A stretch of 64,000 nucleotides of DNA, from IMG/VR virus record IMGVR_UViG_3300008267_010368, positions 78,669-142,668 of that record; one strand, written 5' to 3'. Position 1 is the first letter of the stretch. Each line of letters opens with the position of its first letter. Positions 49,393 through 64,000 of the stretch are shown here, piece by piece. Under the pieces are notes generated by a model, which worked only from the letters and a program-made list of their open reading frames with translations, made no database searches and was not told where the DNA came from. The DNA comes from a virus. Made by a program: the position numbers and the translations under genes.

Positions 49393-50877
49393 ATGTCTAT
49401 ATATAAATCTTATTTTGATAAGTCGGATACGTTACTTTATAATTCATATACCAACACTTCAAGAAACCCAATTGTTGAATTGTTTTATGGTAGGTTGGAT
49501 AATGTAGGTATACCATTTGGTTTTAGTCGTTATATTTTTGATTTAGATTTGACAAATCTAACAAATCTTCTTAGTGATGGTGTAATATCAACGGATTGTA
49601 CTGGTTTTAATAACATCAAACATACGTTAAGAATGACAAACACTTCTTTTTTTGATAGTGATTTGTTAAATGACAAAACATCACAAGGTAGAAGAAGGGC
49701 AACTTCATTTGATTTAATACTTTATCGAATTCCACAAACATCAGGAGAAACAGGGACACCACAAAGTTGGGACAGTGGTGTTGGGTACGATTATTACGAT
49801 TATAAAATAAATCCATATAACGACAAATCTTATTCTGATAGACCTGTAAATTGGTTTCAAACAACAACAATATCTAATTGGTCTTTGCCAGGAATTTATG
49901 ACAACACTAATTCACAATTATCACTAACAGGTGTTAATTTTAGTGCTCTTACAATAATTGATACTCAACATTTTGAATTCGGAAATGAAGATATTGAATT
50001 CGACATGACAAATGAAATCAATGGTATATTAGATGGGAGTATAATGGGTGTTACAGGTTGGGGCATTTCTTTCTACCCACAAGTTGAAAATATATCGGGA
50101 CTTACTGAAAACTATTCGGTAGGTTTCTTTTCACCACACACACAAACGTTTTACGAACCATTTTTGGAAACTTCTTATAATGATTTAATTATCGACAATA
50201 GAACAACGTTTTACGCAGGAAATAATAACAACTTGTATTTGTTTGTTTATCAAAATGGAAATCCTGTAAATTTAGATCAAAATCCATTGGTTGACATTCA
50301 GGACATGAACGGTTCTTTTGTTTCTGGATATATTAATTTACCTACTTGTCTTGTAACAAAAGGGGTTTATAAAGTCCTTGTAAGTAATTTAACAGGTGCA
50401 ACAACACCTTGTTTGTATTATGATATTTGGAAAGGACTTAAATTAAATGGAGCAAATTTATCCAACCAAGAAAATGAGTTTGTTTTACTTGAAAAAAATG
50501 GAAACATTAAAATTGGTGCAACTACTGAAACTCCGAAATTATATGGATTTGATTTTTTTGGAATTAAACAAAATGAAAAAATATTGAACACTGATGTTAG
50601 AAAAGTAAATGTGATTATAAAACAAGCATATACGTCAAGTCAACCATTATTTAATGTCGAAGCATATTACAGAGTTTACGTTAGGGAAGGTGCAAATACT
50701 GAAGTTCAAGTTCAAGATTGGACAAGAATTAATCAAACTGTAGATGGTTATTATTTCATTTTTGACACCACTGATAAAATACCAAATGAATATTTTATAG
50801 ATATAAAAGTTAACACTGATAGAAATATTGACACTTATAAACGCGAATTACAATTTGAAATAGTAAATAAGAAATAA
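49393..50877 (+). CDS. Virion structural protein of unknown type
   Basis: 494 residues, beta-rich and aromatic (YDYYDYKINPYNDKSYSDRP), with no catalytic motif. The C-terminal 250 residues look like tandem Ig-like or beta-sandwich domains (LFVYQNGNPVNLDQNPLVDI, then VEAYYRVYVREGANTEVQVQ). It lies between the hub gene and the cysteine-motif genes, so it is probably a baseplate or tail-fibre adaptor part. Confidence 0.5.
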   Translation: MSIYKSYFDKSDTLLYNSYTNTSRNPIVELFYGRLDNVGIPFGFSRYIFDLDLTNLTNLLSDGVISTDCTGFNNIKHTLRMTNTSFFDSDLLNDKTSQGRRRATSFDLILYRIPQTSGETGTPQSWDSGVGYDYYDYKINPYNDKSYSDRPVNWFQTTTISNWSLPGIYDNTNSQLSLTGVNFSALTIIDTQHFEFGNEDIEFDMTNEINGILDGSIMGVTGWGISFYPQVENISGLTENYSVGFFSPHTQTFYEPFLETSYNDLIIDNRTTFYAGNNNNLYLFVYQNGNPVNLDQNPLVDIQDMNGSFVSGYINLPTCLVTKGVYKVLVSNLTGATTPCLYYDIWKGLKLNGANLSNQENEFVLLEKNGNIKIGATTETPKLYGFDFFGIKQNEKILNTDVRKVNVIIKQAYTSSQPLFNVEAYYRVYVREGANTEVQVQDWTRINQTVDGYYFIFDTTDKIPNEYFIDIKVNTDRNIDTYKRELQFEIVNKK

Positions 50878-50879
50878 TT

Positions 50880-52895
50880 ATGTCAAGAGATTTAACAGTT
50901 CAAAAATGTTGTGGCGATTCGGTAATAAATATTATAGTTGACGACCGAGTTAGTGCAATCACAACAGGAAATACCTATTTATTTACACTTTTAACTGAAC
51001 CAAATACTACGGATTGTTATACTGTATTAATAATAAAAGATACTGAACAAATAGTAAATGCAACACTTGATGGTTCTTACACATCTTGTGAAGAATGTTT
51101 GAGCGGCATTACAACAGCGGTAAGTGTTGTTGATTGTGTAAGAGGTGAAACTTATTTTATTGACATTAATACTTTTACAACTCTTCCGACAATTGATGAT
51201 ATATATTATTTGTCATTTTCATTAGAAGATAGTATTAAAACGTTGTGCGCAACTATTGAATGTTTTGTTACACCAAGAGACGGTGATTTTATTTATTCTT
51301 TGGCATCAATAAGTGATTCGTATACGGGTTGCACTGAATGTTTAACCAATAATTTTTCAGTTTATTCGGTAAATACTTGTTTGGAACCTACTACCACTTA
51401 CTTGATTGCATTTCCTCTTGGTTTTGATTATACCAATTATGTAGTGACTTTTATTGATAGTTTTGGTGATATACAATGTGGGATTGTTGATGTTATTCAA
51501 GAAGGCACCGAAACATCCGGAACGTTAGTTTCTGTTTTAGGTACAAAATTTGAAGTTACTTGTGAAGATTGTTTAGCAATTAGTAACGAAAAAAGAATTA
51601 TAACAAATTGTTTAACCCGACAAGACGAAGTTGTATGGGGTTCTGTGTTTTACGAAGGAAATGAAGTATCAAATCTTTCTACCATCGATGGGTGTTTTGA
51701 AGTGGGCGATTTGACAGAATCGGCAGTAACAATAAATACTTTTTTAAACTTCGATCCACAACCTGATTGTCAAGAATGTATTCAATGTAATGGTTTATAT
51801 TATTCTTATTCGAGTTGTACTAATACAGGTCCGATTGGAAACATAACTTATGACACGGGTGTAGGATTATTAGATGGAGAATATCTTAATCTGACAGGCA
51901 CAACAGATGGTAATGGTGTAGGTGCTTATTTTGACGTAACCGTTCAGAGTGGTAGTATTTTGAATATAGGTTTTTTTGGTGGTATTGGATATCAAGTTGG
52001 TGATACTATATCGATTTCATCACCTCCTTTTGGTGGTGTTAATCCATTTATTATAGAAGTAACAAGTATTTCAACTACAGGTACTGTTTTTTCGTATAAA
52101 TACGTTCAAAACCCAATAGGTAAAATATTTTATGTCCCACAACTTAATGATTGTGTTGAAATCACAGGTATTGAAATTAATGATGCATATTATGCTGTAT
52201 CAAGTTTCGAAGTTTTTGAAAGTTGCACAGAATGTCAAGCAAATGCCGATAATTATTATATTTGGTTAACTGAAGAGTGTGGAACTGGTTACAATAACAT
52301 TGTTGTATTAACTTCAAATTCATTTACAACAGGTGATTACGTAAAGGTATTAAGAGGAACCTCGGAATTTCAGTGTCAAAAATTATTGTCACCCTACACG
52401 TATGTTGGTGGAAGTGGTATTGCTTATATTTCAAACACGTTGACTCCTTTTGATGATTGTGCAACGTGTAATACTGGAACATTAATTGGTGCATCTATTG
52501 TCAAATGTGGTGGTGGAAACCAACAGTTTGTTAATATCCCAATTGATATTTGGAATATAATGGCTTATACAGACGGACAATTAGTGTTTGTGACTCAAAA
52601 TTATGGACAATGTTATATTTTATTAAATAATTGTCCATTAGAACCAAATTACACAACTATAACCCCCGTATCGACATATTATAATTGTATCCAATGTGCT
52701 TTTGACAACACAAGATTTCCAAGAAGTGCAAATACAGAAACTTTAATATGTGTCGTTTGTTGTGATTGTGGTTCTTCAGGAAGTACAATAACACAAGTGG
52801 CACCACCACATCCAGTATATACCGATCAATATGGCATTGATGTGACACAAATGAATATGGTGGTACTTGGTGGTCCGAGAGGATTGAATAATTAA
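50880..52895 (+). CDS. Cysteine-motif virion protein with repeated CxxC modules
   Basis: 671 residues. About seven modules of 70-120 residues each end in a CxxC motif: SCEEC, GCTEC, TCEDC, DCQEC, SCTEC, DCATC and NCIQC, each preceded by a Cys about 25-60 residues earlier. This suggests small beta domains stapled by disulfide or metal. The last 60 residues (starting PRSANTE, then CVVCCDCG and ending LGGPRGLNN) are shared almost unchanged with the next gene. It is probably displayed on the virion exterior. One module is interrupted by a Gly-rich insert at about 315-400. Confidence 0.55.
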   Translation: MSRDLTVQKCCGDSVINIIVDDRVSAITTGNTYLFTLLTEPNTTDCYTVLIIKDTEQIVNATLDGSYTSCEECLSGITTAVSVVDCVRGETYFIDINTFTTLPTIDDIYYLSFSLEDSIKTLCATIECFVTPRDGDFIYSLASISDSYTGCTECLTNNFSVYSVNTCLEPTTTYLIAFPLGFDYTNYVVTFIDSFGDIQCGIVDVIQEGTETSGTLVSVLGTKFEVTCEDCLAISNEKRIITNCLTRQDEVVWGSVFYEGNEVSNLSTIDGCFEVGDLTESAVTINTFLNFDPQPDCQECIQCNGLYYSYSSCTNTGPIGNITYDTGVGLLDGEYLNLTGTTDGNGVGAYFDVTVQSGSILNIGFFGGIGYQVGDTISISSPPFGGVNPFIIEVTSISTTGTVFSYKYVQNPIGKIFYVPQLNDCVEITGIEINDAYYAVSSFEVFESCTECQANADNYYIWLTEECGTGYNNIVVLTSNSFTTGDYVKVLRGTSEFQCQKLLSPYTYVGGSGIAYISNTLTPFDDCATCNTGTLIGASIVKCGGGNQQFVNIPIDIWNIMAYTDGQLVFVTQNYGQCYILLNNCPLEPNYTTITPVSTYYNCIQCAFDNTRFPRSANTETLICVVCCDCGSSGSTITQVAPPHPVYTDQYGIDVTQMNMVVLGGPRGLNN

Positions 52896-52905
52896 AACAT
52901 AATGA

Positions 52906-52913
52906 TATTTATA
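52906..52913 (+). promoter_or_regulatory. Late-promoter-like box before second Cys-motif gene
   Basis: GATATTTATA, 13 bases before the ATG at 52927, in a 31-base intergenic gap. Its flanks resemble those of the minus-strand box at 15300. Confidence 0.55.
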
Positions 52914-52926
52914 TAAAAAAGAAAAA

Positions 52927-53553
52927 ATGGCAAATTATATTGTAGAAGGTTGTTTAGATGGTTTAGAGTATATTGTATCGGCATCTACAACACTATCACC
53001 TCTTGAAGTTATTGGTTTTAACTTTGGCGAAGAATCAGAAATTTGTGGTACAGTTATATCTGTAACTGAAGATGAACCCATACCGTTATATTCTTATTCA
53101 CACCCTTATACTGATTGTTGTGATTGTTTCACGGGCGGTACTTTACAATCTTTGGAATTTCAAAACTGTGACGGGACAACTTTTTTATACAGTATAAGTG
53201 GTTTTTGTGAAGTTTATGGTAGTAACCCAAGAAAAGATGAGGTATTCCAATTTTCTGAAAATGAAGTATTCTTTTGTGCTACATTTATAGATGGAAAAGA
53301 AGATTTACCTGATGAAAACAATTATTTTCCTGAAGCCGGACCATTTGTGAGCTGTTCTGATTGTGAAAGTGATATTCCAAGAAGTGCAAATACAGAAGCA
53401 ACCGTATGTGTGATTTGTTGTGATTGTGGTGCGACAGGTAGTACAATAAATCAAATTACACCACCTAACCCAGTGTGGACTGACGGTTTTGGTACTGATG
53501 TAACACAACTAAATATGATAGTTCTTGGTGGACCTAGAGGATTAAATTCTTAA
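52927..53553 (+). CDS. Cysteine-motif virion protein, paralogue of 50880 and 11598
   Basis: 208 residues. The N-terminus MANYIVEGCLDGLEYIV pairs with the protein at 11598. CxxC motifs occur in TDCCDC and SCSDC. The C-terminal 58 residues (PRSANTE, CVICCDCG, LGGPRGLNS) match the end of the 671-residue neighbour. It thus joins the N-terminal module of one relative to the C-terminal module of another. The shared tail is probably a docking or trimerisation element. Confidence 0.6.
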   Translation: MANYIVEGCLDGLEYIVSASTTLSPLEVIGFNFGEESEICGTVISVTEDEPIPLYSYSHPYTDCCDCFTGGTLQSLEFQNCDGTTFLYSISGFCEVYGSNPRKDEVFQFSENEVFFCATFIDGKEDLPDENNYFPEAGPFVSCSDCESDIPRSANTEATVCVICCDCGATGSTINQITPPNPVWTDGFGTDVTQLNMIVLGGPRGLNS

Positions 53554-53556
53554 CTT

Positions 53557-54018
53557 ATGAAAAATATTAATAACATCATCAAAAAAGTATTGATGGAAAC
53601 CCGTCAAGAATCACAAAGATATATGTTCTTTTCAAATCTTGAACAAATGAAAAGACAATGTGAAACATTATTGGAGATGGACAAATCTGAAATTGAACAA
53701 ATTTTAGATCACGGACATGATTGGGCTCAAGACCATATTGCAGAAGCAAAAAACAACATGGATCAAGTTTTTGATTTTCTAATGAACGAAATGAAAGGTG
53801 GTGATATGTCATCTGAAATGGATATGGAAGATGATGAGGTAATGATGGAAGGTAGAAAAAAAACAGGAACAAAACTATGTGCTAGAGGTAAATCTGCAGC
53901 AAAAGCAAAATTTGATGTTTACCCTTCGGCATATGCAAATGGTTACGCAGTTCAGGTGTGTAAAGGAAAAATCAAAGGTCTTGACGGAAAAAAACGTTGT
54001 TCAGGTACGTATTGTTAG
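53557..54018 (+). CDS. Small protein with C-terminal Cys/Lys-rich conserved module
   Basis: 153 residues. Residues 1-95 are helical and acidic. The last 50 (GTKLCARGKSAAKAKFDVYP, then SAYANGYAVQVCKGK) form a compact module with several Cys that recurs in T4-like marine phages in proteins of unknown function. It shares the opening style NINNIIKKVLMETRQ with the minus-strand gene at 54333 (DLNNIIKKVVKEAN), so the two probably belong to one functional group. Confidence 0.6.
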   Translation: MKNINNIIKKVLMETRQESQRYMFFSNLEQMKRQCETLLEMDKSEIEQILDHGHDWAQDHIAEAKNNMDQVFDFLMNEMKGGDMSSEMDMEDDEVMMEGRKKTGTKLCARGKSAAKAKFDVYPSAYANGYAVQVCKGKIKGLDGKKRCSGTYC

Positions 54019-54036
54019 AAAATTTTATTATCTTTG
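54012..54036 (+). promoter_or_regulatory. Possible Bacteroidetes-type host promoter
   Basis: TATCTTTG at 54029-54036 fits the Bacteroidetes -7 consensus TAnnTTTG exactly. A TTG lies at 54012-54014, but 14 bases away rather than the usual 19 or so. It would start transcription about 20 bases before the ATG at 54058. Confidence 0.4.
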
Positions 54037-54057
54037 TTCTTCAACAAATAAATTTAT

Positions 54058-54336
54058 ATGAAGAACAGAAAAGTATATGTGTTAAGAACTGGAGGACTTT
54101 CTAAAATTGATAATCGGTTTCATTTTCACGATATTGAAGTTTTTTCTTCTGATAAAAAAATTAATTATGAAGTCAGAAAAAGAATTGAAATTAATAAAGG
54201 AACTAATGTCAGACATGACGAAGGATTCTGTGGTTATGGAACATATCAAAATACCTTGATTACTTACGATTCAATAGATATTGATGAAAATCCAATAACA
54301 ATCAGATATGAATTATTAGAAAAAAAGTTAAATTAA
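54058..54336 (+). CDS. Small protein of unknown function
   Basis: 92 residues (KVYVLRTGGLSKIDNRFHFH, then RIEINKGTNVRHDEGFCGYG). No family recognised. A host-like promoter is possible just upstream. Its TAA overlaps the stop of the convergent gene in the shared bases TTAA at 54333-54336. Confidence 0.55.
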   Translation: MKNRKVYVLRTGGLSKIDNRFHFHDIEVFSSDKKINYEVRKRIEINKGTNVRHDEGFCGYGTYQNTLITYDSIDIDENPITIRYELLEKKLN

Positions 54337-55052
54337 AGAATAGATAAAATACTCTTTACAAGAAAATCAACAGATTCCTTTTGAGTTCTTTTCTTTTTTG
54401 GTTTATATGATGTCATTACAGGTTTTTGTCCTTTTCCTGTTTGTGTATCTTGTTTTTCCGCTTTTCTTTTTTGTTGACATGCTGCTCTTTTTTGTACATC
54501 TGTCATGTTTCTTGCAACACCTACGGCTCTACATTTAGGATAACCCTTCGATTCACCTTCAGGTCTACCACACGGTGGATGTCCTCCACCTTTCTTTTTC
54601 CTACAAATGTTAACCCAAGGACCTTGTGGTTGTTTAGTACCTTTACCTTTCTTTTTTGTTCCAAACCATACTGCCAAATCTTCATTTAAAACAATTGAAT
54701 CCAAATCAACCCATTCTTTTAATGGAACAAACTTCAAGTTTTTACCTGGTGTTTGATTTATTATTCCACCATCTTCGTCGTTAGGTGTTTTGTGTTTTTT
54801 GTTATATAAAGATATTTTTTTGGCTTTAGTTTCAAGACTTTTAGCCTTTTTTTTACTCATATCTAATGAACCGTCATAACTATCATATTCTAATTCGGCA
54901 TTGAAGAAATTAGATACTTTAGTATCGAAAGGTCCAAGTTCTTGTTTACCCCAATCGATTTCACCCATAGACAAAGGTCCGTTATATGAACCGGCATACC
55001 TATCGGAATTTGCTTCTTTAACTACTTTTTTTATTATATTATTTAAGTCCAT
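54333..55052 (-). CDS. Basic protein with conserved C-terminal Cys/Arg/Lys module
   Basis: 239 residues. N-terminal half: SDRYAGSYNGPLSMGEIDWG and a lysine-rich stretch. C-terminal half: PWVNICRKKKGGGHPPCGRP, then KGYPKCRAVGVARNMTDVQK, a module found in small basic proteins of T4-like marine phages and of some bacteria, without known function. The N-terminal DLNNIIKKVV helix matches the start of the protein at 53557. It is the last gene before the exported-protein cassette, and a TATTTATA box precedes it. Confidence 0.6.
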   Translation of the reverse strand: MDLNNIIKKVVKEANSDRYAGSYNGPLSMGEIDWGKQELGPFDTKVSNFFNAELEYDSYDGSLDMSKKKAKSLETKAKKISLYNKKHKTPNDEDGGIINQTPGKNLKFVPLKEWVDLDSIVLNEDLAVWFGTKKKGKGTKQPQGPWVNICRKKKGGGHPPCGRPEGESKGYPKCRAVGVARNMTDVQKRAACQQKRKAEKQDTQTGKGQKPVMTSYKPKKKRTQKESVDFLVKSILSIL

Positions 55053-55065
55053 TAAAATGTGGATT

Positions 55066-55073
55066 TATAAATA
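55066..55073 (-). promoter_or_regulatory. Late-promoter-like box before 54333-55052 gene
   Basis: TATTTATA on the minus strand within the longer run TATTTATTTATA, 13 bases before the ATG at 55052. It lies in the 42-base gap after the exported protein gene that ends at 55095. Confidence 0.5.
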
Positions 55074-55094
55074 AATATCTGAAAGTTTATAAAT

Positions 55095-57086
55095 TTATTG
55101 TTTATAAACTCTTTTCATTGAACCGTCATCATAAACTTTGAAATAAACACCTGTTGCAGACATAACATCAATTTCTTGTCCTGTAATATTAATATACTTT
55201 ACCACTTTTTTATTTGAAAGTGTATTATCTAAAGACACTATGTTAAAAAATTCAGTAGTTCCATCATAGTCAGTTTGTGAAAGTCTATAATAATTAATCA
55301 TATTTCTTGAAAATGTTTCATCTGAATATGAATAAGAAAGTTCTTGTGTTGATTGCCCTGCGGCAACTATTTTTGTCACTTCTTCCCAATTTTCACCATC
55401 ATTAGACCTTTCCAAGGTAAAATAGTTATTGTTGTGTTCAGAAGCAGTTAACCAATATAATAAGTTACTACTACCATTATTAACACCATCAAAACTTATT
55501 AATTCTATTGGTAACGCACTTATTCTTGATACTGTTACGTTTCTACAATTAGCATCATCTAAACAATACCCATTTGCATTTATGTGAACATAGTAAGTTG
55601 CATTTATTGATGCCGTAAAATCTAAAGGAGATGAACCATAAGAAACGACTGTTCCGTTAGGTGTTGAAACTGTAACTGTAACCCAATCAGTAGGTATACT
55701 TGATAATACAGTATAAGTTACTCCAGCAACACCATTATTCCATTGGCTATATTCATCTGTGTATTGTCCATTACCCGCTGAACACAATGTGGTTACGTCA
55801 GGTGTTGTGGTTGTTGGTAGGTTTTCTACACTCCAAGCTGTTGTATTCAAACAAGGACCTGGTGGTGGTGGAGGTGAACACGTAAATGCTAAACTAAAAG
55901 TTGATGTTGTACTATATCCGTGTACAAGTATAAAATATGTTACACCTGGTGTTGAAGTCCAAGAATACGATGCTGCAGTCCCCGTACACGACGGTCCGTT
56001 ATCATCTATACCACCTACACAAACAGGTGTTGTACAAGAACCTTGAAACACTGACATCTTACTGTCCCAAGCTGTGACACACAGAGATGCGGTCATTACA
56101 TCTCCGGTGCCAACAACTTTATACCACACACCTCCCGTCGTTTGTGTGGTCCCACAAGAACCTCCTTCACCTGCACCTGTTAGGGTTGAACCCACAGTAG
56201 TTCCCCCGACTAATGAACCACAAGTAATTGTAGTCGCATTACATATTAAATCATTAGCAGGTGCAACAATTGGACAACCCAAATTAAATGTTACATTATA
56301 TGTACCTGTTGTTTCAGGGTCTAAAAGAATATAATATGTAACACCAGCAGTAAATGTCATTGGGGTTACTCCATTAAAACTTCCTGTAAAGCTAATGTCA
56401 TCAATACAGTTCCACCCTGTACTACCACACCCACCTGACGCAGGTTTCCAAAAGAAATCAACGTATCCTCCTGTGATTGATGTCACATTAAGAGTATATG
56501 TTCCTGTCTGAGTAGGTGTGAATTGGAATATTCTTTCTTGTCCTGGTGTTGAAAATCCACAGGTACTGACATTCCACCCTGCCCCTCCACCTGACATTGT
56601 TGTAGAAACATTAGTTCCACAACTTGCAATTGTTGTAATCGAAGAACAAGGATTATATACAGGAGCACAAGTGACTCTGTAACTTAATATTGTTGTTGCA
56701 CTTAGATTTGCACAACTATAATTTGTAACAAGTATTGAATACGTTCCATTTGCAGGACAAACCCAAGTAAGTGATGCCTTTGTTCCACCACAAAACGGAC
56801 CGTTGTCGTCATTCTGAGCCAATACAGTTCCACCTGTAGCGGTTGAGTATAGTCTTAAATATGTATCATTTGTAAACGCACTATTACAAGTAGAAAAATC
56901 GTAAGTACATCCAGCTGTTGCCGTGAATCTCCAATACCTTTTTGCTGATGATGCGTTTGACACATTTTGGAATGTCCCTGTTGGTGTAATAACACCCATA
57001 TTCACAAGACCTGTTGTTGAACAAAATTGTGAAAGTAGATTAAAATTTACTAATAACGTAAATAGGAGTAATGCAAGTTTTTTCAT
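55095..57086 (-). CDS. Exported multidomain protein with host-type C-terminal domain
   Basis: 663 residues. Signal peptide MKKLALLLFTLLVNFNLLSQ. At least three beta-sandwich PPC-like domains follow, each with a YxLxV or YFILVHG strand (examples NGTYSILVTNYSC at about 110, TYTLNVTSITGGYVDFFW at about 205, VTYFILVHGYS at about 385). From about 525 to 663 there is a C-terminal block starting ALPIELISFDGVNNGSSNLL, with YWLTASEHNNNYFTLERSND and a last SMKRVYKQ. The LPIELxxFDG entry into such a block is typical of Bacteroidetes exported proteins just before their sorting region. It resembles the neighbour at 57279. The function is unknown; adhesion or enzyme binding is possible. Confidence 0.75.
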   Translation of the reverse strand: MKKLALLLFTLLVNFNLLSQFCSTTGLVNMGVITPTGTFQNVSNASSAKRYWRFTATAGCTYDFSTCNSAFTNDTYLRLYSTATGGTVLAQNDDNGPFCGGTKASLTWVCPANGTYSILVTNYSCANLSATTILSYRVTCAPVYNPCSSITTIASCGTNVSTTMSGGGAGWNVSTCGFSTPGQERIFQFTPTQTGTYTLNVTSITGGYVDFFWKPASGGCGSTGWNCIDDISFTGSFNGVTPMTFTAGVTYYILLDPETTGTYNVTFNLGCPIVAPANDLICNATTITCGSLVGGTTVGSTLTGAGEGGSCGTTQTTGGVWYKVVGTGDVMTASLCVTAWDSKMSVFQGSCTTPVCVGGIDDNGPSCTGTAASYSWTSTPGVTYFILVHGYSTTSTFSLAFTCSPPPPPGPCLNTTAWSVENLPTTTTPDVTTLCSAGNGQYTDEYSQWNNGVAGVTYTVLSSIPTDWVTVTVSTPNGTVVSYGSSPLDFTASINATYYVHINANGYCLDDANCRNVTVSRISALPIELISFDGVNNGSSNLLYWLTASEHNNNYFTLERSNDGENWEEVTKIVAAGQSTQELSYSYSDETFSRNMINYYRLSQTDYDGTTEFFNIVSLDNTLSNKKVVKYINITGQEIDVMSATGVYFKVYDDGSMKRVYKQ

Positions 57087-57088
57087 AT

Positions 57089-57191
57089 GACCTTTAATTT
57101 TGTGGGTTTAAAACTAAAGTCACACTTGAAGAACCTTGTGGTGGAACCCCCATCTACCATGGGCCGGTCGTGTCTTTACTATAAATAGAAA
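57089..57191. other. Leader region of the exported gene at 57086
   Basis: The gap 57087-57278 holds an AGGTCATATG leader (also before 58235), a GC-richer stretch with CCATGGGCCGGTCG around 57158-57170 that stands out from the AT-rich surroundings, the TACGTA element at 57192-57213 and the terminator of the upstream gene. I see no further gene. Confidence 0.4.
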
Positions 57192-57213
57192 GATATACGT
57201 AAAAATACGTAGT
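57192..57213 (-). promoter_or_regulatory. TACGTA inverted-repeat element
   Basis: On the minus strand, TACGTATTTTTACGTA with an added AC before and TATC after. It is an inverted repeat of TACGTA around a 4-base spacer, 105 bases before the gene at 57086. A very similar element occurs at 62114-62134 before the protease gene. It is probably a regulator site shared by the two exported genes. Confidence 0.5.
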
Positions 57214-57219
57214 GAAAAT

Positions 57220-57252
57220 ACCAAAAAAGGGGTGAATTATCATACACCCCTT
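57220..57252 (-). terminator. Terminator of the exported gene 57279-58235
   Basis: On the minus strand, stem AAGGGGTG / CACCCCTT with a 10-base loop, followed by a run of T. It lies 27 bases after the stop at 57279. Confidence 0.75.
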
Positions 57253-57278
57253 CTTGTTTAATATTTAACAGTTAATAA

Positions 57279-58235
57279 TTAATATTGATAAGTTTTAACA
57301 AATTCACCATTTTTATAATAAATGATAACTATCCCTTTATAATATTCGTTAACTTCTTTACCTGACAAATCAACAATTTTTTCGACTTCTTTTTGATGTC
57401 TGTTATCAATTGCTATTATTGGATATACTTTTGTTTTACCGTCAAAATCGTATTGAATAAGTCTATAGTAATTAATTACATTTTCTACTTTCATGTCAAG
57501 TAAATCATAATCTATAATGTTTTGTGAATATCCTGAACCCAAAATATTTCCAACAATTGTTGAATTTTTAAAATCACCTGTGGTTGTTTTTTCGATTATA
57601 AAGTGACTTGAATTAAATTCTGATGCCGTTTGCCACTTCAATAAGTTAAAACCATCTTGTTTTACACCATCAAAATATGTGAGTTCAACAGGCAAAGATA
57701 CAGGACTTGTTAATGTTATATCATCAATTCTGAATTGAGTTGATGTTGATGTTTGAGTAAATCTAATTCTTAAGTTATTAGTAATTGGAATTGTTCCTGA
57801 TGGACTTATTAATCTCCATATTGCCGTTCCACCTCCAGTTGGACGACTATAAGATAAAGTTGTATAATTAATACCATCCGAACTAACTTGTATTAATAAT
57901 TCATTATTACCAGCTATTGTACTTTTGAAATGATTTAATGTTAAAAATACTTCAGAATACGTTGATGTGTTGATTCCTGAAATTGTAAAACTTCTTGGTG
58001 TGGAATTTGTAAAAAAAACATTAGCATTGTCATCATTTGGTGTTGGTGAAGATGGTTGTGTCCTCCTTACATCTACATTTCCTGTGTATGTAATTGGGCT
58101 TGAATTTTGCCAACCATTAAATGAACTGACAGAAGTGTTAGAAGTTACTGTACCAAAATTTTCAGAATAGATGGTTGTTTGGGAAGATAGAATTTGCGAA
58201 ACCATTAACGCAAACATTAACAATAAATTTTTCAT
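57279..58235 (-). CDS. Exported protein with host-type C-terminal domain
   Basis: 318 residues. Signal peptide MKNLLLMFALMVSQILSSQ. Residues 20-180 are a jelly-roll-like domain (IYSENFGTVTSNTSVSSFNG, FTISGINTSTYSEVFLTL and IRFTQTSTSTQFRIDDITL). The C-terminal block (about 183-318) begins LPVELTYFDGVKQDGFNLLK and includes WQTASEFNSSHFIIEKTTTG, the same style as the neighbour at 55095. The start is preceded by AAAAGGTCATATAATG, almost the same leader as at 57086. It is probably on the cell surface or secreted. No enzymatic motif is seen. Confidence 0.75.
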   Translation of the reverse strand: MKNLLLMFALMVSQILSSQTTIYSENFGTVTSNTSVSSFNGWQNSSPITYTGNVDVRRTQPSSPTPNDDNANVFFTNSTPRSFTISGINTSTYSEVFLTLNHFKSTIAGNNELLIQVSSDGINYTTLSYSRPTGGGTAIWRLISPSGTIPITNNLRIRFTQTSTSTQFRIDDITLTSPVSLPVELTYFDGVKQDGFNLLKWQTASEFNSSHFIIEKTTTGDFKNSTIVGNILGSGYSQNIIDYDLLDMKVENVINYYRLIQYDFDGKTKVYPIIAIDNRHQKEVEKIVDLSGKEVNEYYKGIVIIYYKNGEFVKTYQY

Positions 58236-58260
58236 TATATGACCTTTTAATTATAAGTAT

Positions 58261-58268
58261 CAAAAATA
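58261..58268 (-). promoter_or_regulatory. Possible Bacteroidetes -7 element before exported gene 58235
   Basis: TATTTTTG on the minus strand fits TAnnTTTG, 25 bases before the ATG at 58235. A properly spaced -33 TTG is not evident. Confidence 0.3.
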
Positions 58269-58292
58269 TAAGAAAACAATGTTAATTTTAAA

Positions 58293-58320
58293 TTAAAAAA
58301 CCCCCAAATTCTTGGGGGAT
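58293..58320 (-). terminator. Terminator of the SprB-repeat genes
   Basis: Stem CCCCCAA / TTGGGGG with a 4-base loop, followed on the minus strand by a run of T. It lies 60 bases after the stop at 58383 and ends the 59829-58383 unit. Confidence 0.8.
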
Positions 58321-58382
58321 TTCTTTTTTGTGGAACCAACAATAATCAAAGAATTATTATTCTTTTTTCGACTTTGTTATTT

Positions 58383-58979
58383 TTAATTGTTTGAAATTGT
58401 ATTTTGTTGAAAACCTTGTGTATTAGGGTTATATGAAGACGGAAAACCACTTGCGGATGGTTGATCGATTATAATTCTCTTATTATACACACAACCATCA
58501 ATCGCCGTTATTTCAATATTGTATATTCCTGCCGTTAACAAAAATTGATCTTCTTGATTTGGGATAATACCTGAGCCATTGCCAGTCCAATTATATGTAG
58601 CAGTACCGTTTAATATTGTGACATCCGCAGAACCATTATTTCCACCAAATGTCGTAACGTCAGTTTTTAATATTTGTATTACCAACGGTTGTGGATCTGT
58701 CAATGTTAAAGTAGCAACTGAAGAACTCAAATTAGAGTCGGTTACATCAAAAACATATTGTCCACCAGATAAATTAGTTGCAATAAACTGAGTTCCATTT
58801 ATCTGTAAACCATTTATTGTGTAAGGTTCAACACCTCCTGTTATATCAATAATAATTTCTCCGTTATTGTACCCGTTACATGATGGGTCTATTTTGGTTG
58901 TTTGTAATGACATCTGTTGTGAAAATGATACAGATACCGTTAAAAATAATGATGCTAATGTGATGATTAAATTTTTCAT
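58383..58979 (-). CDS. Small exported SprB-repeat protein
   Basis: 198 residues. Signal peptide MKNLIITLASLFLTVSVSFSQ. Two SprB-type repeats follow: DPSCNGYNNGEIIIDITGGV to YVFDVTDSN (about 32-90), and TTFGGNNGSADVTILNG to YNIEITAIDGCVYNKRIIID (about 110-172). There is no T9SS C-terminal sorting domain, and the end is short and Asn/Gln-rich. It lies 22 bases after the next upstream gene and is probably co-transcribed with it. It may be the partner or surface subunit of its sorted neighbour. Confidence 0.75.
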   Translation of the reverse strand: MKNLIITLASLFLTVSVSFSQQMSLQTTKIDPSCNGYNNGEIIIDITGGVEPYTINGLQINGTQFIATNLSGGQYVFDVTDSNLSSSVATLTLTDPQPLVIQILKTDVTTFGGNNGSADVTILNGTATYNWTGNGSGIIPNQEDQFLLTAGIYNIEITAIDGCVYNKRIIIDQPSASGFPSSYNPNTQGFQQNTISNN

Positions 58980-59001
58980 GTTCTTTTTTTTATTTTAATT
59001 A

Positions 59002-59829
59002 TTAAAGTATAGTTATTCTTTTTGTTTCTGTTCCTTTTTCTGTTGTTACATAAATCATATAGATACCTGTTTTAAGATTATCAACATATAATTTTGATAA
59101 AGATGATTTGTCGTTATAAACTTCTTCACCATTGATTGTATTCACAATTCTAATTTCACTTACATTTTCTTTAGTCTCTATTGTGAAATTACCATTTGAT
59201 GGGTTTGGATAAGTTGAAATGGCTGATGTGTTGTTAGAAATACTTGGACTAATCAAGTTAGGATTGTTAAGAGTTGGTAATGATGGGTTTGGTTGTGAAA
59301 TTGTAAAATAACCGATTCCTACACAACCAATAGAAGCTGTAACCATTATTTTATAATAACCTGAAGTTAATCCTTGTTGGTCTAAATTACCTTGGTTTTG
59401 AAAACTACCACCCGCAGTAAACCATTGGTAAGTAAATGAACCTGTTGTATTTGAAATATCTACAATATCTATTTGTCCGTTAGACAAACCAAAAGAAGTT
59501 ACATTTGATTGTGTTCCTGAAATTGTGATAGGAAGTGGATTGTCAACTGTAAGAAATGCTGCGATTGTACTGTTGTAAGAATCTGTTACAGTTACTGAAT
59601 AATTTCCTGCCGAAAGATTTGATATCGTTTGAGTGGTATCACCATTACTCCATTGGTAAGTATAAGGAGGAAAACCACCTGAAGGAAGTGCGGTAATTTC
59701 ACCATCAGAAAAGTTAACACAAGTTGGGTTAGTTTGAGAAACCCCAAGATTGAAAGGTACTTTAGTTTGTGCGAATGTTACAACTGTTAGAAGTGTAAAA
59801 AGAATTGTGTTTAAAATTTTTGTTTTCAT
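59002..59829 (-). CDS. Exported SprB-repeat protein with T9SS type A sorting domain
   Basis: 275 residues. Signal peptide MKTKILNTILFTLLTVVTFAQ. Two SprB-type repeats: NPTCVNFSDGEITALPSGGF with PYTYQWSNGDTTQTISNLSA (about 34-100), and SFGLSNGQIDIVD to YKIMVTASIGCVGIGYF (about 110-178). The C-terminus is a canonical T9SS tail: STYPNPSNGNFTIET (about 204), IRIVNTINGEEVY and TGIYMIYVTTEKGTETKRIT. T9SS would carry it across the outer membrane. SprB repeats occur in the gliding adhesin of flavobacteria. Confidence 0.88.
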   Translation of the reverse strand: MKTKILNTILFTLLTVVTFAQTKVPFNLGVSQTNPTCVNFSDGEITALPSGGFPPYTYQWSNGDTTQTISNLSAGNYSVTVTDSYNSTIAAFLTVDNPLPITISGTQSNVTSFGLSNGQIDIVDISNTTGSFTYQWFTAGGSFQNQGNLDQQGLTSGYYKIMVTASIGCVGIGYFTISQPNPSLPTLNNPNLISPSISNNTSAISTYPNPSNGNFTIETKENVSEIRIVNTINGEEVYNDKSSLSKLYVDNLKTGIYMIYVTTEKGTETKRITIL

Positions 59830-59902
59830 TTTTTTTATTTTTTAATTGTTAGTTATTTTTTGTTTCTACAAATATATAGGTGATGTATGTTGTTAAATCC
59901 TG

Positions 59903-59932
59903 TTTTCGGAGGGTAGGTATTTTGAAGTTCAG
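59903..59932 (-). promoter_or_regulatory. Conserved element upstream of SprB gene
   Basis: A 30-base segment, 23 of 30 bases identical to one at 62068-62097 upstream of the protease gene. Core on the coding strand: CAAAATACCTACCCTCC. It lies 73 bases before the ATG at 59829. Candidate operator or promoter. Confidence 0.45.
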
Positions 59933-59960
59933 TAGTTGTTATTAAAATGATTAAGTGTTA

Positions 59961-62012
59961 TTACTTAACAACTAACTTTTGAGTTACATTATTTACTGTC
60001 ACAAGGTAAACACCTTCACATAAATCACTTACAGACACCTCACCGATAAAGGTAGATTGAGTTACAACAATTTGTCCGTTGATGTTTGTGATTGTTAAGT
60101 TACAATCATCATCCTTACCTGTTTTAATCGTTACAGAACCATTTGAAGGGTTAGGGTATACAAGTAGTTCATTTGAAGTTAATTCACTCACAGATGAGGT
60201 ATTTTGGGTGTTTAACATTGTATTCTCAGAAGTCATACAACCATTTGCGTCTGTTACAAGAAGTTCATAGAATCCTTCAGAAAGATTATTTAAGTTTTGT
60301 GTTGTGTCACCATTGTTCCATTCGTAAGTGTATGGTAATGTTCCACCATTAACTGTAATGTTAATTGAACCATCAGAAGTGATTGTAGGGTTCACAGAAG
60401 TTATGTTTGATACAAGTAGTTCAGGTTGTCTTACACTTAAAGTGTCAGAGTGAACACAATCAAATCCATCAACAACTGTAAAAATATAATTACCTGAAGT
60501 TAAATTTGTTAAAGTGTTACCAACAACACCGTTATTCCATACAGCATCAGATACAAATTCACCACCTGAAATGTTTACAGAAATTTCACCATTTGACATC
60601 CCAAAACATTTTACGTCAGAAACCAAAGATTCACTTGTAATTTTTTCGTATTTTTCAACATAAACTGAATCAGTAAATCTACAACCATTCGAATCAACAA
60701 TTTGAACTAAAACAAACCCGTCGTTTGATACTGAAATTGTTTCGTTAATATCACCATTCATCCATTCATAGTTATAAGGTGTTGTTCCGTCAAGGTTCAA
60801 TACAGATACAATCTTATCTCCTGACACACAATCAACATTAGTTTTGAATGTTCCACTGATTGTGTTGAATTCTTTTGCCATTTTCACAGCCAAATGAGAA
60901 TTCAATGTTCCTGCTCCAAGTAATCCCTGATAATTTGGGTTAATTAAATACATATCAGAGTTTGCGGTTTCTTTTAAGATATACTCAATATTATCAACAG
61001 TTAAACAAGGATTAACAGATAACATAAGAGCGACAGTTCCTGAAACAAAAGGAGATGCAAATGAAGTTCCATTTCCTGTGACGTATACCCCAGGTGAAGT
61101 AGTTAATGGAACGTCATATCCTGGTGCACAAATATCAACCATTGAATTGTGTTGGTGAGTTGTGTTTGGGTCTCCCATGAATCTTTCGTGGTTATTTGCA
61201 AACCCCACAGATGAAACAGATATTACGTGGTTGTATGAAGCAGGATAAACAAGATTAAAAGAACCACCACAAGTAGAACCATTTCCTGCTGAAGCAACAA
61301 TTACAGTTCCGTTAGAATAAACCTCATCAATTACCATCTGAGCATATGAATTGAAAGAACAAGAAGATGCCCAACTTGCGTTTATAACTTTAGCTCCTGA
61401 ATATGTGGCATCAAGCATTTCATTATAAGACATTGTTCTTAGTTGTAATCTTGAATTATAACCAATAGATGAAGTTCCAACAGTGTTATTAGTATTTCCA
61501 CCTGCAATTACAGCAACTGCAGTTCCATGTCCGTAGTTCGTGTTTGTATTGTTTAATGTAATGTAATCATATTTTCCTGTTAAATCTTCGTGATTAACGT
61601 AAAAGTTAGCGTCAGTAATAGCAATAGTCACAGTTGAACCTTTTGTGTAATCCCATGCCTCTTTTGAACCAATCATATCAAGTGCCCACTGATTTGGAAC
61701 GACAGTGTTATAATCGTTTGGAGTTTCTAGTGTTTGATAGTCAGGACCCACTTCAGGGTTCACAAACAAATCGTTTCTTTTTTTAAGTGATTCAACAATA
61801 ACTGTAGAACTTACATTTGATTGTAATTCATATACGTTTTGAAGTGTTTGACTTTTTGATGATGGAAACGCCTTTTCAACAGAAGTAATGTTTAGTGTTT
61901 GTAGTTCAGTTCTTACTGACTCAATGTTTGGAATTGTAACCCATACTCTATTTTGAGCGAATGTGGTTAACATTGTTAAAGTTGTTGCGATTGTTAAAAA
62001 TACTCTTTTCAT
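59961..62012 (-). CDS. Exported subtilisin-like protease with SprB repeats and T9SS sorting domain
   Basis: 683 residues. Signal peptide MKRVFLTIATTLTMLTTFAQ. A propeptide-like stretch (about 21-100) precedes an S8 protease domain with an intact triad: Asp134 (TIAITDANF), His162 (NYGHGTAVAVIAGG) and Ser317 (GNGTSFASPFVSGT), plus the oxyanion Asn244 (ASAGNG). Three SprB-type repeats follow from about 390 to 600 (for example VKCFGMSNGEISVNISGGEF and PYTYEWNNGDTTQNLNNLSE). The T9SS tail is VYPNPSNGSVTIKTG (about 616), then LTITNINGQIVV and CEGVYLVTVNNVTQKLVVK. It is directly downstream of the major capsid gene, after a terminator. The likely site of action is the cell surface or the medium. Confidence 0.93.
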   Translation of the reverse strand: MKRVFLTIATTLTMLTTFAQNRVWVTIPNIESVRTELQTLNITSVEKAFPSSKSQTLQNVYELQSNVSSTVIVESLKKRNDLFVNPEVGPDYQTLETPNDYNTVVPNQWALDMIGSKEAWDYTKGSTVTIAITDANFYVNHEDLTGKYDYITLNNTNTNYGHGTAVAVIAGGNTNNTVGTSSIGYNSRLQLRTMSYNEMLDATYSGAKVINASWASSCSFNSYAQMVIDEVYSNGTVIVASAGNGSTCGGSFNLVYPASYNHVISVSSVGFANNHERFMGDPNTTHQHNSMVDICAPGYDVPLTTSPGVYVTGNGTSFASPFVSGTVALMLSVNPCLTVDNIEYILKETANSDMYLINPNYQGLLGAGTLNSHLAVKMAKEFNTISGTFKTNVDCVSGDKIVSVLNLDGTTPYNYEWMNGDINETISVSNDGFVLVQIVDSNGCRFTDSVYVEKYEKITSESLVSDVKCFGMSNGEISVNISGGEFVSDAVWNNGVVGNTLTNLTSGNYIFTVVDGFDCVHSDTLSVRQPELLVSNITSVNPTITSDGSINITVNGGTLPYTYEWNNGDTTQNLNNLSEGFYELLVTDANGCMTSENTMLNTQNTSSVSELTSNELLVYPNPSNGSVTIKTGKDDDCNLTITNINGQIVVTQSTFIGEVSVSDLCEGVYLVTVNNVTQKLVVK

Positions 62013-62067
62013 ATTGTTAAATTTTTGGTTCTAACAATAGATAGGAGTATATTATAGTAGAATCCCC

Positions 62068-62097
62068 TTTTTGAAGGATGGGTATTTTTGATTTCAG
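62068..62097 (-). promoter_or_regulatory. Conserved element upstream of protease gene
   Basis: Copy of the element at 59903-59932; core on the coding strand CAAAAATACCCATCCTTC. It lies 55 bases before the ATG at 62012. Confidence 0.45.
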
Positions 62098-62113
62098 AAA
62101 TAGGACTTAGAAC

Positions 62114-62134
62114 GATATAGTAAAACTACGTAGT
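62114..62134 (-). promoter_or_regulatory. TACGTA element upstream of protease gene
   Basis: On the minus strand, ACTACGTAGTTTTACTATAT, closely similar to the element at 57192-57213. A further GTATACGTATAC palindrome stands upstream of it at 62146-62157. The 202-base gap 62013-62214 also holds the capsid gene terminator; no gene is seen in it. Confidence 0.5.
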
Positions 62135-62161
62135 TAGTAGGAAAAGTATACGTATACAAAC

Positions 62162-62188
62162 AAAAAAAGGGGAATTTACATTCCCCTT
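62162..62188 (-). terminator. Terminator of the major capsid gene
   Basis: On the minus strand, stem AAGGGGAA / TTCCCCTT with a 6-base loop, followed by a run of T. It lies 27 bases after the capsid stop codon at 62215 and separates the capsid gene from the exported cassette. Confidence 0.82.
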
Positions 62189-62214
62189 GTTTCTTATTCT
62201 ATTTTTAGATTTGA

Positions 62215-64000
62215 TTATCTCAATTCTCTTAAATCGAATGTACGTACACCATCAACTGTGATACGTCCGTAGAAACGGTTATTAACCATTTTCTTAGCGT
62301 ATCTTGTCATAATACCTTTGATAGGTGTGAAGTTGAATGGATTGTACATTGTAGGTGTTAATTGTAGAGGTACATACGGTGCGTAAACATAACCTGTGTC
62401 AAGTAACGATGTTCCTTTGTGTCCAATCAAAACTTGGTTTGGTGGGAAGTAAGGATCACGGTATACTTGATAACGTCCTGCAAGAGTACCAACTCTTTCA
62501 ATACCCATGTTATACTGATCTTGCTCAGGAGATGCATTAGATACGTGGAAGTATTCTAAATCATCAAAGATTGCTGAAACTTCAGAAGATACAACGATCC
62601 AGTTAGCACCACCTCTTAAAGTAGATTTGTGGATTTGTGCTGACAATTGGTTGATTGCTGTAATCAAAGTTTGGTTCCAGTCTTTTTGAGTGTAAGAAGT
62701 TTGGTTAGCAATTCTTCTCCATCCGTTGTAATCCCAACGAAGGTTCCATGCCGCTCCTTTACGTAAGTCACGTAAAATTTCACGATCGATTTCTGCAGCA
62801 ACTTGTTCAGACAATAAAGCTGTCAATTCAGCTTCAGCATCAATGTTGTGGAATGCAGAAACGTCTTGTGCCAATTCAGGAGACCATTGTGCTCTTAATT
62901 TTCTTTCTGTTACAGATACAGTAACTGACTCAAGGTCGAAAGAAACTTCACCGATAGCATCTTCAAATTCAAGTTCCGCATATCTTCTATAAGTTGCAGA
63001 AAATGCAGTTCCTGAAGTCACAGCAGAAAGGGTTGCTCCTGTGTAACCATCAAGTGAAGTAGCGTTACAGTCAGCACATACAGGACAAGAAAGATCCACT
63101 TCAAGGAAAATACAACCATCTTGATCACAAATGTTATCGTAAGAACCACCATTTCCGTTAGGGAATGTAGTAGATACTTGTGAATAAGTAGGACTAACAA
63201 TACCTTTACCATATTGTTGAGTAACAACTCTAAATAATAAAGAACCTGTTCCTACTGTACAAGGTGAGTCAGCACTTACACCTAAACCAGCACCTTTAGT
63301 GATTGTTAAATCAGAAAGGAATGCTTCAGTATCGATTTCAGAACCATCAGGACCCATAAGTTTACCAACACCAGCGTCATAGAAACCACACATTTTGATA
63401 ATTACTTTTCTTACTCCTGTTGTTTCATAATCAGTTTCGTTAGGTACTAAATTACCATTACTCCAAGAAACTGTAGTAGTAGGAGAAGTCACAGCAGTCC
63501 ATCTTCCTTTAGAATAATCGAAAAGTCCTGGAGGATCTAATCCAGCTTCAGCCCCTTCGTAAAATAAATCATAAAGATTTTTAGCGTACTGTGTACCGTC
63601 ATTATATCCAGTGTTAGTAGTTGCGTTTGAACCTGGTGCACCAATTGGTTGGTTGTGAATTGCACTTGTGGTAGGATTTGCAGTTGTGTAACCTTGGATT
63701 TTAGGTACGAAGTAGAACAATTTACCAATAGGTAAGTTCATTGCTTGTACAGAAACGATGTCGTTAGCCAACAATTTAGAGAATACACGACGAACGATAG
63801 GGAAAACTACAGTTTCGAAAGAACCTGAACTATCAGTTGACGCGGCTTCGTTAATTAGGTGAGACGCTTGGTTTTCATATAATTGTGCCATGTTCTCTTT
63901 GATGTGTCCTTTAAGACCGTCTAGGAATCCTAATTTATCCCATTTGTTAATTGTATCTTCTTTGATAACTTTAAGGTGCTTAAGACCGATGTTACCAACA
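62215..64000 (-). CDS. Major capsid protein, T4 gp23 family, runs off the right edge
   Basis: The frame stays open upstream of the ATG at 63891 to the window edge, adding at least 36 residues (KWDKLGFLDGLKGHIKEN just before that ATG), so that ATG is internal. Total in the window is 594 residues. gp23 signatures: YENQASHLINEAAS, FPIVRRVFSKLLANDIVSVQ followed by AMNLPIGKLFYF, LRAQWSPELAQDVSAFHNID, AEIDREILRDLRKGAAW and RYQVYRDPYFPPNQVLIGHK, ending in ITVDGVRTFDLRELR. It forms the head shell after processing by the prohead protease. An insert with CPVCADCNATSLDG (about 310) carries a CxxCxxC motif not typical of T4 gp23. Confidence 0.95.
   Translation of the reverse strand, partial: VGNIGLKHLKVIKEDTINKWDKLGFLDGLKGHIKENMAQLYENQASHLINEAASTDSSGSFETVVFPIVRRVFSKLLANDIVSVQAMNLPIGKLFYFVPKIQGYTTANPTTSAIHNQPIGAPGSNATTNTGYNDGTQYAKNLYDLFYEGAEAGLDPPGLFDYSKGRWTAVTSPTTTVSWSNGNLVPNETDYETTGVRKVIIKMCGFYDAGVGKLMGPDGSEIDTEAFLSDLTITKGAGLGVSADSPCTVGTGSLLFRVVTQQYGKGIVSPTYSQVSTTFPNGNGGSYDNICDQDGCIFLEVDLSCPVCADCNATSLDGYTGATLSAVTSGTAFSATYRRYAELEFEDAIGEVSFDLESVTVSVTERKLRAQWSPELAQDVSAFHNIDAEAELTALLSEQVAAEIDREILRDLRKGAAWNLRWDYNGWRRIANQTSYTQKDWNQTLITAINQLSAQIHKSTLRGGANWIVVSSEVSAIFDDLEYFHVSNASPEQDQYNMGIERVGTLAGRYQVYRDPYFPPNQVLIGHKGTSLLDTGYVYAPYVPLQLTPTMYNPFNFTPIKGIMTRYAKKMVNNRFYGRITVDGVRTFDLRELR

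Follow-up and report, generated by a model that had tools for sequence, protein, structure and literature searches.

The window analysed here is a stretch of 64,000 bases (78669-142668) at the end of the 142,668-base virus record IMGVR_UViG_3300008267_010368, which comes from a large phage probably infecting Flavobacteriales. It carries a cassette of five consecutive minus-strand genes at 55095-62012, transcribed in the order P5-P4-P3-P2-P1 and placed between gp23, the major capsid gene, and a conserved small phage gene referred to as the anchor (Table 1). A previous sequence-only reading had described five such genes, each beginning with a signal peptide, and the open reading frames (ORFs) together with our signal-peptide calls agreed with it. 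That reading had also placed the flanks on the minus strand, which holds for gp23 and the 239-residue anchor, whereas the next small genes beyond the anchor (54058-54336 and 53557-54018) lie on the plus strand.

Export signals and the P5 protease

Using a heuristic of our own, a signal peptide was called in all five cassette proteins, each with a small-x-small cleavage site followed by Gln at +1. Gln in this position corresponds to the Q-rule of Bacteroidetes, which applies to a mean of 71% of substrates (PMC5837995; the papers cited by PMC number are drawn on in excerpt). Among the 60 window ORFs of at least 80 residues there was one further signal-peptide call, and that one lacked the Gln. 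In the whole record, 6 of the 125 ORFs of this size combined a signal peptide with Gln, five of them being the cassette genes; the sixth (G000:C1:5979-6386, minus strand, locus L270) encodes 135 residues and had no PHROG match. When the distinct 5'-complete ORFs for comparable exported proteins (cargo) of viral loci were examined, 89/100 had a signal core, and all 89 of these had the small-x-small site with Gln, where shuffles expect 21.1. The remaining 11 resemble extended starts or fragments. The combined call was made in 34 of 1174 other viral ORFs, several of which are other cargo in the same interval.

P4 and P5 scored above the TIGR04183 cut-off for type A sorting domains of the type IX secretion system (T9SS), and Pfam PF18962 agreed on both, so that the two canonical domains read earlier from the sequence stand. 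A search of P1, P2 and P3 with TIGR04183 and other T9SS models gave no match, which keeps these three out of the type A class; the broader statement that some of the proteins are T9SS-sorted holds by canonical domain for P4 and P5, whereas P1, P2 and P3 match no sorting-domain model. SprB repeats were found by PF13573 in P3 (3.3e-8), P4 and P5, the three proteins expected. SprB itself is a very long adhesin with a role in gliding, and P3-P5, at only 198-683 residues, fall outside that class by length.

The catalytic triad (D134/H162/S317) and the oxyanion N244 are present in P5, which assigns it by its residues to the subtilases. In an alignment of 36 rows, near-copies included and one row being the window's own fragment, D134 was conserved in 33/33 covering rows, H162 in 32/32, and N244 and S317 in 30/30 each. 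On the host side, 199 genomes were searched from the order to which G004 belongs (the genome with the Fluviicola-labelled locus L088); 182 of them gave a subtilase match at E<=0.001, and the best homologue shared 57% identity with the phage subtilase in L004. An NP/PNP-type tail was seen by eye in 19 of the 26 host homologues printed; most of the others end at the locus edge. The subtilase tree (56 rows) requires four changes between phage and host, three of them forced by starred branches, and it carries a warning of long branches, among them the phage group L060/L062/L073. From these changes, tempered by the long branches, it appears that phages captured subtilases repeatedly, in at least two captures. 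Among the complete phage subtilases, most have a short C-terminal tail with the pattern V-D-NGK...PG-Y...KKIYKN, and the full tail is kept by P5 and by the enzyme of L193. Loci L060, L062 and L073 hold a distant second subtilase subfamily with a signal peptide, in the same interval downstream of gp23.

Table 1 Features of the cassette and its surroundings in the window (aa, amino acids; nt, nucleotides).
Feature	Position	Strand	Description or evidence
P5	59961..62012	-	683 aa; exported subtilisin-like protease, SprB repeats, T9SS type A sorting domain
P4	59002..59829	-	275 aa; exported SprB-repeat protein with T9SS type A sorting domain
P3	58383..58979	-	198 aa; exported SprB-repeat protein without recognisable sorting domain
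P2	57279..58235	-	318 aa; exported; body without Pfam match, then LPVEL-FN3 and short C-terminal tail
P1	55095..57086	-	663 aa; exported; body without Pfam match, then LPIEL-FN3 and short C-terminal tail
gp23 major capsid protein, upstream neighbour	62215..63891	-	PF07068 3.1e-74
Anchor, conserved 239-aa phage gene closing the variable interval	54333..55052	-	phrog_23735, 1.9e-6
Peptidase_S8 domain of P5 (aa 125-353)	60954..61640	-	PF00082 1.7e-27
T9SS type A sorting domain of P5 (aa 618-683)	59964..60161	-	TIGR04183 40.6 bits, cut-off 23, 1.8e-10
T9SS type A sorting domain of P4 (aa 207-274)	59008..59211	-	TIGR04183 37.7 bits, cut-off 23, 1.5e-9
C-terminal module of P1 (aa 525-663)	55098..55514	-	alignments A3 and A4
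C-terminal module of P2 (aa 180-318): FN3-like ~184-278 and short tail	57282..57698	-	AlphaFold2, fold search
Three-way-junction RNA element in presumed 5' leader of P1	57106..57180	-	model R1 73.2 bits
TATTTAT promoter-like box directly before RNA element	57181..57187	-	
TATCTAT promoter-like box, 31 nt before P5	62037..62043	-	
Intrinsic-terminator-like hairpin between gp23 and P5	62167..62188	-	terminator scan
Intrinsic-terminator-like hairpin between P3 and P2	58301..58318	-	terminator scan
Terminator-like hairpin between P2 and P1	57229..57250	-	by eye; outside the scan's list

The short C-terminal tail of P1 and P2

P1 and P2 share a C-terminal block that is read directly as LPIELISFDG in P1 and LPVELTYFDG in P2, in line with the LP(I/V)EL..FDG block of the sequence-only reading. 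The AlphaFold2 model of P2 had block means of 88-98 in the predicted local distance difference test (pLDDT) for residues 181-318 and a poor body; the whole model reached 70.3 pLDDT with a predicted template modelling score of 0.48. A fold search returned a pectate lyase chain as top row (Z 12.0), followed by FN3-named chains (Z about 10-11), all rows spanning residues 180-280 only, so that the tail lies outside them. Twelve aligned modules have about 130 C-terminal residues in common. The module match ended within 3 residues of the C-terminus in 70/70 full viral matches and within 5 residues in 26/27 bacterial matches. A conserved Gly and a basic pattern at the C-terminus are retained in the short tails.

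The genome scan for the module found 27 bacterial loci, 21 of them labelled Flavobacteriales, Fluviicola, Crocinitomicaceae or Cryomorphaceae and the other six Chryseobacterium (2), Bacteroidetes, Kuenenia, Deltaproteobacteria and Ignavibacteriae. In module-bearing bacterial genomes, what follows LPVEL-FN3 is the short tail in some proteins and a different one in others; of 24 selected proteins of the second kind, 23 matched TIGR04183 at E<=0.01. Phage genes behind the RNA leader described below likewise bear either tail on bodies that are 65-84% identical (among the 12 best pairs listed). The short and type A tails therefore fill the same slot, since either follows LPVEL-FN3 and either follows similar phage bodies. 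From LPVEL to the end, the short-tail proteins measure 134-139 residues against 185 in type A relatives, and they lack the PNP half of the type A domain. With hhalign, the short tail aligned with the second half of the classic tails (P 2.7e-4), at a probability of only 41.5% in one comparison. By our reading, the matched half contains the loop with the conserved Gly and the basic final strand, both of them motifs shown to be important for sorting by the T9SS of P. gingivalis (PMC11285876).

Of the bacterial genomes encoding the module together with its tail, 13 were tested and SprA was present in 13/13, representing 13 of the 27 bacterial loci. In a phylum-wide test the module was found in 126 of 296 genomes, 125 of which had SprA over the cut-off, while SprA occurred in 228 of the 296; this co-occurrence supports the tail only indirectly, because the matches concern mostly the FN3 half and few listed hits reach the tail. 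Taken together, we consider it fairly likely that the short tail of P1 and P2 acts as a minimal T9SS sorting signal.

The bodies of relatives carry GEVED, CUB and T9SS-associated galactose-binding domains. That many unrelated bodies are joined to the module is not claimed, as 68 viral bodies clustered by single linkage into 5 groups, the largest with 59 members. A search of INPHARED with one module protein (L071) gave four matches, all to records of uncultured phages of 462-642 kb (LR756502, LR745206, LR756504 and LR756500) that encode parts of the LPVEL module; LR756502 additionally matches the SprB-repeat parts of P4 and P5. Two further observations concern tails in other loci: a bacterial genome (L269, G011:C58) holds five short-tail proteins in a cluster, and L223:5633-5998 encodes a 121-residue protein made up almost entirely of a signal peptide and a domain resembling a sorting tail (PF18962 24.3 bits, below the cut-off of 27).

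Leader RNA, promoter-like boxes and recurrence in related phages

The presumed 5' leader of P1 contains an RNA element whose 22-base core recurs in 41 viral stretches (L299-L339), 28 of them distinct over 75 bases. The downstream ORF was exported by our test in 37/37 readable cases, near-copies included. By eye, 17 of the 18 distinct complete ORFs behind the leader end in a short (10) or PNP-type (7) tail, and 6 of the 18 matched TIGR04183 at E<=0.01. A TATNTAT box lies within 45 nucleotides before the core in 37/41 stretches, at a distance of 12-15 nucleotides in 33 of these. Among the cargo genes linked to gp23, only a minority have the leader in front of them. In one locus (L310:2967-4008), eight tRNA matches are clustered just before a leader-preceded cargo gene on the same strand.

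A three-way junction was fitted to 27 of the 28 distinct leader sequences (alignment A9; L335 was omitted for an insertion). It paired 95.6% of cells, whereas shuffles reached 92.1% and slid versions no more than 54.5%. RNAalifold recovered nearly the same fold. Double-change cells numbered 16 against 5.8 in shuffles; pairs with double changes numbered 4 against 2.2, a count reached by 15/500 shuffles and thus only a modest excess. Since 7 of the 8 central-stem pairs never vary, the evidence from covariation concerns the other two helices. Three leaders folded as single sequences did no better than shuffles (z 0.37, 0.71 and -0.21), so the case for the structure rests on the alignment.

The RNA model R1, whose training set includes the window's own leader (as L320), was found in 6 of 82 sources: the window, L121, L151 and L174, which overlap training sequences, and L193 and L194, which are alike and lie outside the training set. 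Rfam gave no family in window positions 50000-64000 at gathering thresholds and no match on the element in three leader loci at E<=1. The bacterial search covered 199 genomes under strict filters with 24 candidates scored per genome; its sole hit (G497, 32 bits) lies inside a recombinase-like ORF, lacks the GGCCC core and was rejected as false.

TATTTAT was found within 45 nucleotides upstream of 29/131 ORFs of the record. Among 21 permutations of the motif used as control, the next best, which overlaps TATTTAT, reached 13, and the median was 5. The same box was present within 60 nucleotides upstream of 43 of 64 phage module genes and of 0/27 bacterial module genes, and TATCTAT stood upstream of 17/26 phage subtilase genes. 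Sigma-70-type promoters were also tried and showed no excess (45 against 45.5 in shuffles). The boxes, being common to other phage genes, suggest joint expression with the virion genes, and the cassette genes are probably late, a timing that derives from the capsid neighbourhood.

The same cassette was found between the same flanks in IMGVR_UViG_3300042691_055965 (229 kb) and 3300031857_021280, two records that are near-identical to the window there and hence do not represent independent lineages. Upstream of gp23 the former has genes matching terminase, portal and head-protease profiles (phrog_2, phrog_213 and phrog_207 upstream of gp23 in L002), which together with the gp23-type capsid indicate a T4-like phage. 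Presence at the same place in related phages had been named beforehand as a supporting test, and it was found. A scan for relatives of gp23 yielded 80 loci, the best of 600 candidates. In 48 of the 80 the stretch between gp23 and either the anchor or the following conserved genes was closed, near-identical loci being kept separate, and LPVEL-module or subtilase-profile cargo was present in 13 of these 48, any exported gene in 14. As many related phages are without the cassette, it is not essential.

Loci were also fetched by their cargo, with a module scan (80 loci, the best of 272) and a subtilase scan (41 loci). For the synteny count, cargo-fetched loci L112-L228 were used, with identical ends merged and loci below L112 left out; the cargo list leaves out L082, L001 and the window. 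Downstream of gp23 and on its strand were 42 of 69 distinct module genes, with 2 on the other strand and 25 in loci without gp23 (7 of these with less than 2.2 kb upstream), and 19 of 27 distinct subtilase genes, the other 8 being in loci without gp23 (2 of them short). Because the capsid profile covers this clade only, a locus without gp23 need not lack a capsid gene nearby; the neighbours in six such loci are portal, RNA ligase, GroEL and dehydrogenase genes. It was thus observed that dozens of related viruses carry similar genes beside the capsid gene. A diverged copy of P5, 66% identical, adjoins gp23 in L194. Ratios of nonsynonymous to synonymous substitutions (dN/dS, Nei-Gojobori) were 0.10-0.42 in ten informative cargo pairs that we picked, and 0.13 for gp23; a twelfth comparison was identical. 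As judged from these ratios, the cargo is under purifying selection.

Two other gene families were noted around the cargo. In the gp23-anchor interval of L010-L081, genes for putative HNH-like homing endonucleases, so named from a motif, are frequent (a cluster of 32/147 cargo ORFs); such endonucleases are a possible route of cassette movement. A family of small membrane-protein-like genes (92-159 residues) follows LPVEL cargo in L003, L004, L037, L044, L049, L055, L066 and L078, and two members scanned (L044 and L004) had no PHROG match.

Interpretation and relation to known systems

We favour the explanation that the cassette is made up of phage genes, probably late ones, whose products are secreted proteins of host type, and give it as a whole a probability of about 0.78. 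All five proteins would cross the inner membrane by Sec. The host T9SS would then move P4 and P5 to the cell surface or medium, the short tail would let it carry P1 and P2 there as well, and P3 may remain in the periplasm. Late in infection, the P5 subtilase would trim proteins on the host surface, and the SprB-repeat and LPVEL proteins would coat the infected cell. Such trimming or coating would block or destroy receptors, with superinfection exclusion or progeny release as the result, or would alter contact between cells. That the phage-encoded export is aimed at the T9SS is, from the signals described, very likely. Removal of receptors is plausible because gld/spr (T9SS) mutants of F. columnare are phage-resistant (PMC9233685), and receptor destruction or superinfection exclusion as the main benefit is put forward tentatively. 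More speculative still is a dedicated export programme of Flavobacteriales phages, in which a promoter box placed at a nearly constant distance, a three-way-junction RNA confined to phages and interchangeable cargo with a new minimal host-derived T9SS tail would act together; the leader would mark or tune the messages of secreted proteins, and effectors would be swapped under one control element.

Several results weigh against this explanation. The signal-peptide calls are heuristic, 34 of the 48 closed intervals had no exported gene by our test, P3 has no tail, and the hhalign probability for the short tail was low. Phage subtilases as such are known: phrog_3677, annotated as protease, matches P5 at 1.3e-37, and 48 phage records have a distant match to P5, mostly to the protease domain. 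Among short-tail members, 0/63 matched any T9SS model at the C-terminus; the single T9SS-named match among the 63 (E 0.035) fell on the signal peptide of P2.

The last of these results, the tailless P3 and the shortened tails on most complete phage subtilases would be expected if the proteins acted only in the periplasm or outer membrane, for example in lysis, and the tails were relics of host genes. We regard this as improbable, given that the short tails stand at the extreme C-terminus in every full viral match, that their Gly and basic pattern is kept and that dN/dS is low. A somewhat better, though still unlikely, alternative is that the protease and adhesins serve the nutrition or attachment of the infected cell, as metabolic morons benefiting the host, instead of excluding other phages: the cargo varies between phages like host accessory genes, and the T9SS cargo of Cryophage includes an endoglucanase and a GH39 protein (PMC7468147). 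Set against this are the boxes in common with other phage genes, since expression together with virion genes would leave little time for feeding.

Decoration of the virion must also be weighed, as beta-rich repeat proteins encoded beside gp23 could be Hoc-like outer-capsid proteins. The genes do adjoin gp23; phrog_2973 (Hoc-like head decoration) matches P4 at 6.5e-7 and P3 at 0.003, again to the disadvantage of the favoured explanation; and in the cultured Flavobacterium phage immuto a 546-residue repeat protein is the second gene after gp23. That protein shows no signal peptide by eye, however, whereas all five here have one with Gln at +1. The sorting tails of P4 and P5 and a subtilase with an intact triad, whose host homologues carry sorting-type tails, likewise do not suit a capsid role, and we judge it quite improbable. 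A chimeric assembly or host contamination was suggested by host-like proteins in a metagenomic record that ends just past gp23. It was rejected, its probability being negligible, because the two further records (near-identical as they are) have the same cassette and flanks and diverged loci such as L194 carry cargo beside gp23; the absence of the phage box from the bacterial module genes points the same way.

The sequence-only reading had spoken of a new form of host manipulation, and in this it went too far. The phenomenon is not wholly new, because T9SS cargo of Cryophage (PMC7468147) and sorting-domain ORFs of crAss-like phages (PMC6949934) were printed earlier. Cryophage, a 76-kb Bacteroidetes phage, encodes an endoglucanase, a GH39 protein and a PA14 protein with T9SS type A domains, variable between its variants, and the 2020 paper proposed hijacking of the host T9SS and superinfection exclusion (PMC7468147). 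The present case differs from it in the gp23-bearing (T4-like) phage, the interval after gp23, the subtilase and SprB/FN3 cargo, the short tail and the RNA leader. In crAss-like cluster 2, ORFs with T9SS sorting domains were placed beside the head section in 2019; they are BACON proteins, and the excerpted text names no subtilase and proposes no function (PMC6949934). P. gingivalis phages likewise encode exported Q-rule proteins, in a text where a search by term gave no mention of T9SS, type IX or sorting (PMC10367356), and the excerpt of PMC7113391 merely cites a T9SS paper. Among literature titles and abstract openings, with subscription papers and preprints outside the scope, none named a gp23-linked cassette, the short tail or the leader.

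With respect to known families, P4 and P5 are members of the T9SS type A domain (TIGR04183/PF18962) by score, and the short tail shows a weak alignment to the second half of this domain. P5 matches the phage subtilases of phrog_3677, Bacillus and other phages, but the distant records do so at low identity (23-34% among the 20 rows listed). The promoter-like boxes of its own, terminator-like hairpins and patchy presence recall moron or accessory cassettes; unlike those, the cargo here is addressed to a host secretion system. Phage T9SS cargo was thus known before, chiefly from Cryophage, and what is new is the gp23 locus, the repeated protease capture, the short tail and the RNA leader.

On the evidence of its sequences, the cassette is a set of real, recurrent and selected phage genes addressed to a host secretion route. 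Because they carry host export signals and similar genes occur in dozens of related viruses, infected cells are probably made to display viral enzymes and adhesins on their surface; for transport and function, which we infer, surface remodelling or superinfection exclusion appears likeliest. If this is true, phages of a major order of aquatic bacteria would rebuild the host surface through the host's own T9SS, with proteases and adhesins swapped between phages, and gliding and T9SS adhesins could be directly tested as phage receptors. A minimal T9SS signal of about 40 residues would help to find overlooked cargo, and a structured RNA leader linked to exported phage proteins would be added to those known.

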